Assembly: GCA_029881795.1 (NCBI GenBank)
Contig: JAOULX010000009.1
Span: 62,001 to 126,000 of the forward strand
Source: Gammaproteobacteria bacterium
Lineage (GTDB): Bacteria; Pseudomonadota; Gammaproteobacteria; SZUA-229
Length of the DNA stretch: 64,000 nucleotides
Direction: 5' to 3'
Every line of letters begins with the position of its first letter. Positions within the stretch are counted from its first letter, which is position 1. Under the pieces are notes generated by a model. It had not been told where the DNA came from. It saw only the letters and a list, made by a program, of their open reading frames with translations, and searched no databases. Shown here piece after piece: positions 7,644-27,984 of the stretch. Both the position numbers and the translations under genes were made by a program.

Positions 7644-7771
7644 GTGGGCAGTGGGCAGTGGGCAGTGGGCAGTGGGCAGTGGGCAGAAAAGTCTATTTTT
7701 TATAAGTTGATAGTCAACCGAATATTTAAGTCTTTTACTGCAAACTCTACACTGATAGCTGCAAACTTTCT
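7644..7771. repeat. Heptad palindromic element A
   Basis: The left arm has six perfect direct copies of GTGGGCA (7644-7685). A 51-bp AT-rich spacer beginning GAAAAGTCTATTTTTT follows. The right arm (7737-7771) reads as consecutive heptads ACTGCAA, ACTCTAC, ACTGATA, GCTGCAA, ACTTTCT, a degenerate version of the reverse complement of the left unit (phase ACTGCCC). It lies between the FAD oxidoreductase start and the porin terminator. The spacer and right arm are clearly homologous to element C at 16159. Confidence 0.85.
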
Positions 7772-13141: not shown

Positions 13142-13144
13142 AAC

Positions 13145-13251
13145 GGTTTGCGGTTTGCGGTTTGCGGTTTGCGGTTTGCGGTTTGCGGTTTGCGGTTTGC
13201 ATAATTTTAGTCTTTTACCGACCACTGCCAACCGAACACCGCACACTTTCT
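13145..13251. repeat. Heptad palindromic element B
   Basis: Eight perfect tandem GGTTTGC units (13145-13200) start 4 bp after the coq7 stop. A 16-bp AT-rich spacer ends with TAGTCTTTT. The right arm at 13217-13251 reads in phase as ACCGACC, ACTGCCA, ACCGAAC, ACCGCAC, ACTTTCT, degenerate reverse complements of the left unit (phase ACCGCAA). It sits between the convergent coq7 and fbp genes. Confidence 0.85.
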
Positions 13252-16158: not shown

Positions 16159-16304
16159 GTGGGCAGTGAGCAGTGAGCAGTGAGCAGTGAGCAGTGAGCA
16201 GTGAGCAGTGAGCAGAAAATTCTATTTTTTGTATGTCGTTATCAGCTGAATTTTAAATTTTTTATCTTTACTGCAAACCGCCTTTTATACCACGCACTTT
16301 TCTA
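16159..16304. repeat. Heptad palindromic element C
   Basis: The left arm has one GTGGGCA followed by seven perfect GTGAGCA units (16159-16214). The spacer begins GAAAATTCTATTTTTT, close to element A. The right arm from 16270 reads ACTGCAA, ACCGCCT, then with one base out of phase ACCACGC and ACTTTTCT. The first left unit is exactly the unit of element A. It lies between convergent pyk and speD and touches the speD 3' end. Confidence 0.85.
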
Positions 16305-19698: not shown

Positions 19699-19788
19699 AT
19701 GGATAAAAACTGGCCAACGGTAATTAATCGAGACCAGCCAAAAAATCAGCCCGAAAAACTAGCCCCAAAAAACTAGCAGATAATAATA

Positions 19789-27893: not shown

Positions 27894-27900
27894 GGGAGGA

Positions 27901-27970
27901 AGTCCGTCAGAAGTCGTAAGTTTTTAGCCGACAGTCAAACAGCTTTAAAACTGATGACTGACGACTTTTG
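27901..27970. repeat. Heptad palindromic element D
   Basis: The left arm has three adjacent heptads AGTCCGT, CAGAAGT, CGTAAGT (27901-27921). A 28-bp spacer follows. The right arm has ACTGATG, ACTGACG, ACTTTTG (27950-27970). The reverse complements of the left heptads (ACTTACG, ACTTCTG, ACGGACT) share the ACxxxxx phase of the right arm. It fills the rpe-gph spacer, ending 8 bp before the gph start. No homogenised array is present, so it is the most degenerate copy. Confidence 0.6.
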
Positions 27971-27984
27971 CCTTAAGACTGTGT

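Follow-up and report, generated by a model that had tools for sequence, protein, structure and literature searches.

Dispersed heptanucleotide repeats have been described in several bacterial groups. In Xanthomonas and Nostoc, GGGAATC and GGGGA(C/T)T arrays are dispersed and intergenic, lie near stop codons and are under-represented between divergent genes, and GGGAATC heptads form inverted pairs in two xanthomonads, 70 in one and 75 in the other (PMC4692102). Beggiatoaceae have direct TAACTGA repeats upstream of start codons, with one inverted case (PMC4679880), and Geobacter metallireducens has paired, opposite-strand 'global regulator binding sites' that consist of short units, among them tandem heptamers (class 3, MTYCTGA) (PMC2700814). 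Heptamers also accompany an rRNA intervening sequence (IVS). In Coxiella burnetii the IVS is an S23 ORF within the 23S rRNA, preceded by three tandem GACAGAT units upstream of S23p, or two in some strains; RNase III cuts it at the first heptamer, and excision proceeds without ligation (PMC4990558). Homology of S23 and Avd has been stated (PMC10053308). Role and origin are stated to be open both for the bacterial heptamer repeats (PMC4692102) and for the rRNA intervening sequences (PMC4990558); all of these sources are represented here by excerpts.

We analysed a window of 64,000 nucleotides (the whole stretch G000:C9:62001-126000) from a 2.93-Mb genome in 27 contigs (G000, hereafter the window genome), whose closest named relatives are gammaproteobacterial MAGs. 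Element A is bounded on one side by the start of a minus-strand FAD-oxidase/DUF3683 gene and on the other by a terminator-like hairpin 3' of a porin gene, and as dispersed intergenic tandem heptamers it qualifies as a heptanucleotide SSR or STRR. Its homogeneous arm consists of the six perfect GTGGGCA units reported in a preliminary description of the window, which was made from the sequence alone (Table 1). That description had found no known counterpart of the two-arm form, but inverted pairs are published for xanthomonads (PMC4692102) and Geobacter (PMC2700814). It had also ascribed the plan of A, with other heptamers, to three further loci. The results showed two-arm heptads at B and C, whereas D is a 14-base repeat in which no inverted heptad arm was found and which is missing from three relatives. 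A lag scan of the window at periods 5-12 returned the A, B and C arrays as its sole matches, all of period 7. A fourth two-arm element, absent from the earlier list and with a heptamer different from those of A, B and C, was found at 27900-27979.

Table 1. Positions of the heptad elements and of repeat D within the window.
Feature	Position	Strand	Sequence	Remarks
Element A, homogeneous arm	7644-7686	+	(GTGGGCA)6 plus G	TRF 100% match
Element A, spacer	7687-7736	+	AT-rich	similar in elements on C9, C14, C15, C20, C21
Element A, degenerate inverted arm	7737-7771	+	ACTGCAA ACTCTAC ACTGATA GCTGCAA ACTTTCT	
Element B, homogeneous arm	13144-13200	+	(CGGTTTG)8	starts two bases after coq7 stop codon
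Element B, inverted arm	13217-13251	+	ACCGACC ACTGCCA ACCGAAC ACCGCAC ACTTTCT	
Element C, homogeneous arm	16159-16215	+	GTGGGCA, then GTGAGCA x7 (eight units)	just past pyruvate kinase stop codon
Element C, inverted arm, degraded	16270-16304	+		extends to stop codon of converging AdoMet decarboxylase gene
Element D	19738-19777		14-base repeat CCAAAAAACTAGCC, 2.9 copies	precedes plus-strand gene
Fourth two-arm element, AGTC/GACT heptamers	27900-27979	+	AGTCCGTCAGAAGTCGTAAGT ... ACTGATGACTGACGACTTTTG	flanked by two minus-strand genes

Several simpler attributes of these loci were assessed. The spacers were inspected by eye for a promoter (TTGACA-N16-TAnAAT), but A has one site (minus strand, 7717-7690) and shuffles give 1.2, so this candidate was dropped as being at chance level. 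G-quadruplexes were rejected as a general cause, since GGG runs are missing from B (GTTTGCG) and from most of C (GTGAGCA). No known RNA family matched at the gathering score, and element A folds with an MFE of -38.4 (z -2.1). By eye, A and B are each followed by a terminator-like hairpin of their own.

The right arm of element A comprises five ACTGNNN-type heptads and ends T-rich. The preliminary description had staked the inverted arm on a period-7 signal stronger than that of shuffled sequence; the lag-7 signal was significant for B (P = 0.011) but not for A (P = 0.23) or C (P = 0.78). The five in-phase heptads that it reported for A are visible, and the support for this arm is comparative. 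We compared nine right arms chosen on the basis of the left arm or of orthology, the right arm itself being unused in the choice. Within-arm mismatch was 0.10-0.25 at the ACTG positions compared to 0.61-0.71 at the NNN positions, a contrast reached by 0 of 5000 column permutations. Element A thus joins inverted period-7 arms with a common core, although its right arm alone is not significant against shuffles. Additionally, a 16-base two-arm pattern occurred in inward order in 18/369 genomes of the class, 3 of which appear by eye to be coding matches, and in swapped order in 1/369. Counterexamples in G348, in G004 and at the S23 loci described below refuted a universal AGT/ACT core, and period 7 was not unique in a core-free two-arm scan, which also found intergenic pairs of periods 8-11, e.g. 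CACAGAGA...TCTCTGTG.

These data bear on whether the elements are plain microsatellites, that is, intergenic heptamer slippage beside an inverted sequence that arose by chance or from a terminator, unconnected with any gene. Such an origin accords with the lack of a significant period-7 signal in the A and C right arms alone and with the over-representation of heptamers in bacteria, for which PMC4692102 cites a polymerase-footprint explanation. It does not account for the conservation of the ACTG core over NNN or for the preference for inward order.

Further copies were sought across the window genome. A BLAST search that used the A spacer plus its right arm as query identified related copies on C9, C14 and C20. 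The genome matched a pattern of four ACT triplets spaced 7 bases apart 49 times, and inspection by eye assigned these matches to 15 loci; the control gave 0 forward and 5 reverse. The additional copies on which the preliminary description had made its proposal depend do exist. The GTGGGCA copies have a common spacer and polarity, the homogeneous arm being the same arm every time, and a second heptamer family, GTCGTAA/TTACGAC, coexists in the genome. Within 464 kb of unbiased sequence from this genome, including the window, strong arrays were confined to the window, which indicates a low and clustered density of elements. In genome G026, many contigs end in homogeneous heptad arrays (L180-L185, L189), and short-read assemblies therefore probably under-count heptad elements.

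The orthologous sites were then compared among related species. At site B, inverted heptad sequence was present in 4/4 species examined, weakly in L011 and L012; at site C, an array was present in 4/4 species examined, with differing heptamers. The window has CGGTTTG at B and GTGAGCA at C, L011 and L012 have GTGGGCA at C, and L013 has GTCGTAA at both. The heptamer varies among genomes and at times also among sites. Site A has no element in L011, where it is not a clean empty site, and no array in L013, and L012 does not reach it. Copy number at site C was 8, 3, 8 and 6 units in the four species. Together with the two versus three heptamers of the Coxiella IVS, these counts support expansion by slippage, which the preliminary description had suggested, with conversion as its alternative, from the homogeneity of one arm. 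Homogeneous arrays that differ in copy number between species would also suit microsatellites, whereas the common spacer and polarity of the dispersed copies would not.

We next considered where the elements sit, using a mixed and partly pattern-chosen set of 48 elements from which the coding locus L089 had been dropped. Twenty-six lay between co-directional genes, 12 between convergent genes and 1 between divergent genes; the remainder were located within an ORF (2) or at the edge of a contig (7). Elements lie flush with stop codons, many of the 48 starting <20 bases from one, and are rare between divergent genes, in agreement with the published Xanthomonas distribution (PMC4692102). The genes adjoining A-C are unrelated to each other. 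These observations weigh against host regulatory sites, i.e. inverted 7-bp operator arrays for a dispersed regulator as proposed for Geobacter (PMC2700814): such sites would hardly be expected at gene 3' ends (1/48 divergent), beside unrelated genes, or with a heptamer that differs between relatives at the same orthologous site. A core kept at 7-nt spacing with variable triplets, and the lack of cis-specific pairing reported below, would nevertheless suit a protein that reads single heptads. The heptads of the plasmid omega repressor are comparable to such an arrangement. Taken together, we regard operator arrays as highly improbable.

That arrays of period 8-11 enclose GxxExxY (PF13366) genes raised the question of what heptad arms enclose. 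In genome G026 it is an ORF of PF05635, flanked by a CAGT arm and an ACTG arm; this family is that of the S23 or 23S-rRNA intervening-sequence proteins, four-helix bundles related to Avd. PF05635 was present in 7/30 relatives, at 11 loci, and inverted heptads were seen by eye at nearly all of them. In a formal flank test, inverted period-7 arms were detected at 32/40 PF05635 loci, while the same loci gave 0 at periods 5, 6, 8, 10 and 11, 1 at period 9 and 3 at period 12. Mismatched left/right pairs scored 15%, a shared heptamer being sufficient, and random places 0/600. A second batch gave 31/37 (3 of 40 loci set aside for short flanks) and a third, of weaker matches, 4/7 (L379 set aside at a contig edge), for a total of 67/84 loci in Gammaproteobacteria, mostly best-scoring matches and not a random draw. 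Among the 14 loci missed in batches one and two, most read as heptad arms that the strict rule does not accept; the exceptions are L269, a decayed locus of the window genome, and L323, where no arms were seen by eye. A search of 2.2 Mb for other genes between long-gap heptad arms, of low power, yielded none, its one match being two adjacent gene-less elements. Period 7 around a single gene family weighs against plain microsatellites, which we consider very unlikely as an explanation.

PF13366 (GxxExxY) loci behaved differently from PF05635 loci, with arms at 0/17 for period 7 and 11/17 for periods 8-11. GxxExxY genes at L246, L250-L253, L256, L257, L259 and L262 lie in inverted arrays of 8-11-base words (CACAGAGG, CGCAGAGA, TTTGCGTTCA), and these loci are a parallel class with another register. 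Several are presumably placed between carA and carB. GxxExxY was rejected as the mobiliser of the window elements: the window genome has 0 copies, and its arms have period 8-11.

In the window genome no intact S23 gene was found, and A-C have no S23 gene between their arms. An S23 remnant with an in-frame TAG lies at C20:7286-7522, and 4/15 pattern loci of this genome are within 4 kb of it. The surrounding region (G000:C20:4000-13000, L176) contains at least four heptad elements with two or three heptamers. The same-genus genomes G001 and G003 have heptads and gave no PF05635 match. Elsewhere, the 1.5-Mb genome G341 has eleven PF05635 matches on C1, mostly weak and with near-identical scores, perhaps a recent expansion or another family. 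S23 elements at L267, L268, L293, L299, L302 and others lie, as we take it by eye, between the end of rpsI (S9) and a tRNA gene, a common insertion hot spot across the genomes of several families.

Gene-bearing and gene-less copies were compared within genomes. Two-arm copies without the gene occur, and those of G382, G026 and the genus of G075 and G211 have a heptamer in common with a gene-bearing copy. G382, in which alone among 369 genomes the Xanthomonas-type pattern GGGAATCGGGAATCGGGA was found, carries an S23 gene, frame-shifted in appearance, between GGGAATC and GATTCCC arms, and gene-less GGGAATC pairs at other places. CAGTTGT is common to both kinds of copy in G026, as is CAGTGTT in G075 and G211; in G315, of the same genus as the latter two, the orthologous position is occupied by another sequence, which by eye resembles a gene-less heptad element. 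In G094, G131 and G348 the heptamers of gene-less and gene-bearing copies do not match. An S23 gene was present in 13/26 two-arm-positive genomes compared to 64/343 others (P = 5.7e-4), a count that includes the coding-looking matches G244, G306 and G367, and 13/26 two-arm-positive genomes have no S23 gene. The idea that gene-less copies are internal deletions keeping the 3' end of S23 was weakened, as 2/33 comparisons reached P < 0.01 uncorrected (L013C, L177 vs L270); direct homology of the window spacers to the end of the S23 gene is weak.

The association was then assessed outside the class. A tblastn search with one S23 protein identified 23 plasmid records, 18 of which were tested: 11/18 had period-7 arms, compared to 1 at period 6 and 2 at period 8, and mismatched pairs gave 8.8%. 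The formal matches came from Pseudanabaena, Stanieria, Nostoc, Anabaena, Calothrix and Aulosira (Cyanobacteriota), Riemerella (Bacteroidota) and Azospirillum (Alphaproteobacteria). Among the remaining plasmid arms, some are G/A-only (e.g. GGGGAAA) and were removed by the complexity filter, and no inverted heptad arm was found in Gemmatirosa. Arms with matching heptamers flank the S23 gene in most cases, in three phyla. S23 genes also occur inside CRISPR gene sets on cyanobacterial plasmids (L306, L312, L320), between cas6 and cas4 and between cas10 and a Cmr3-family gene; this location could account for the apparent CRISPR association of the family.

For four Nostocales plasmid S23 elements, homologous records without the element were identified (L315 vs L386 and L387; L316 vs L388 and L389; L321 vs L391; L319 vs L392, L393 and L304). 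At these four sites of relatives, arms and gene are absent as a single unit; L304 bears an S23 copy of its own, one gene farther along. Each empty site also has private sequence between the aligned flanks (42, 11, 16 and 7-8 bases). No consistent target-site duplication, a mark of MITEs of DDE transposons, was found at the four filled/empty sites, all of gene-bearing copies, a possible 5-base TTCTA occurring only in L319 vs L304. These insertion marks are not those of an ordinary DDE transposon.

The predicted fold of the S23 representative L302 (pLDDT 95.4) had as its best structural matches 2gsc (Xcc0516 of Xanthomonas campestris; TM by query length 0.82-0.88) and 2rld, followed by Avd 4dwl (0.75-0.79) and the DGR ribonucleoprotein. 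Sequence models concur (2gsc, 2rld and TIGR02436, with weak Avd matches for L264). A reverse transcriptase acting in trans was rejected: 35 S23-bearing genomes have one and 42 do not (P = 0.085), and six single-contig S23 genomes are without it. PF00078 gave 0 matches in the window genome and none in 42/77 S23-bearing genomes, which argues against a need for a resident reverse transcriptase.

Compared with shuffles, gene-less copies had folding z-scores below -4 in 16/28 cases, and those of C and L104 were above 0. A maintained RNA stem was not supported, because cis duplexes were no stronger than trans duplexes in four sets (P = 0.90, 0.90, 0.75 and 0.34). The elements might alternatively be selected 3'-UTR hairpins or terminators, with the S23 gene a passenger that lands there. 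The low z-scores would agree with this, as would the position flush with stop codons and the occupation of sites B and C in the relatives that cover them; but A and B have terminator-like hairpins of their own next to them, pairing is not cis-specific, and at the four plasmid sites the gene is missing along with the arms. We therefore judge selected hairpins to be a very unlikely origin.

The evidence points to the arms of A-C as the termini of an element that, in its full form, encloses a gene for an S23/IVS protein. With a probability of about 0.75, A, B, C and the element at 27900-27979 are gene-less members of a mobile-element family of very small size (S23/IVS-type heptad elements). We infer this status for A-C, between whose arms the S23 gene is lacking, and insertion as a unit is seen for gene-bearing copies, at the four plasmid sites. 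A full element would consist of a 5' degenerate heptad arm, a PF05635/TIGR02436 gene of ~118 codons and a 3' arm with these heptads inverted, ~450-500 bp in total. It may travel in the transcript of a neighbouring gene. The S23 protein could read its arms one heptad at a time; alternatively the arms could act as an imperfect RNA stem cleaved by RNase III, as published for the Coxiella rRNA copy. S23 would act in trans on gene-less copies as its substrates, and slippage would then homogenise one arm. Overall, the observation of the preliminary description was partly confirmed and its interpretation partly supported.

A broader proposal is put forward tentatively, at somewhat less than even odds. 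Heptad-armed S23 elements may form a bacteria-wide, minimal mobile class that has no transposase, recombinase or reverse transcriptase, in which a pentameric protein of the Avd fold reads a 7-base register (GxxExxY apparently one of 8-11 bases), and most unexplained bacterial heptanucleotide repeats (Xanthomonas GGGAATC, Nostoc GGGGATT, Beggiatoa TAACTGA and those of the window) may be its gene-less remains. If true, this offers an origin for many such repeats. Tying one small protein family to a 7-base register makes the origins of heptamer repeats and of rRNA intervening sequences one testable question, namely what the S23 protein binds and how the element enters DNA. The link also predicts where gene-bearing copies lie in genomes that show heptamer arrays.

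Two-arm heptads are thus already known from Xanthomonas and Geobacter, and the link to a gene is without a report that we found. In the literature covered, which includes excerpts of PMC10053308 and PMC10910872 and largely leaves out subscription journals, no connection of the S23 gene with heptads was found beyond the Coxiella heptamers. The elements resemble the Xanthomonas and Nostoc repeats in being dispersed intergenic heptads beside stop codons and in forming inverted pairs (PMC4692102). Unlike the reading of those repeats in the same excerpted source, as G-quadruplex repeats without a gene, G382 has an S23 gene between GGGAATC arms. The intergenic TAACTGA heptamer of Beggiatoaceae (PMC4679880) is a rotation of the ACTGATA in the right arm of A. 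The paired Geobacter sites, proposed as regulator sites, have heptads paired on opposite strands as in A (PMC2700814). The S23 fold is like that of Avd from diversity-generating retroelements, but the present elements have neither a reverse transcriptase nor a variable repeat. The Coxiella IVS shares an S23-family ORF, upstream heptamers and a decaying ORF (PMC4990558), and the complementary ends around its ORF may have their counterpart in the arms. Because element A lies between porin and FAD-oxidase genes and not in an rRNA gene, we term it 'IVS-type' and not an IVS: the Coxiella IVS lies within rRNA genes, its heptamers being a local detail in the parts of PMC4990558 consulted, whereas the present elements are intergenic, dispersed and often gene-less.
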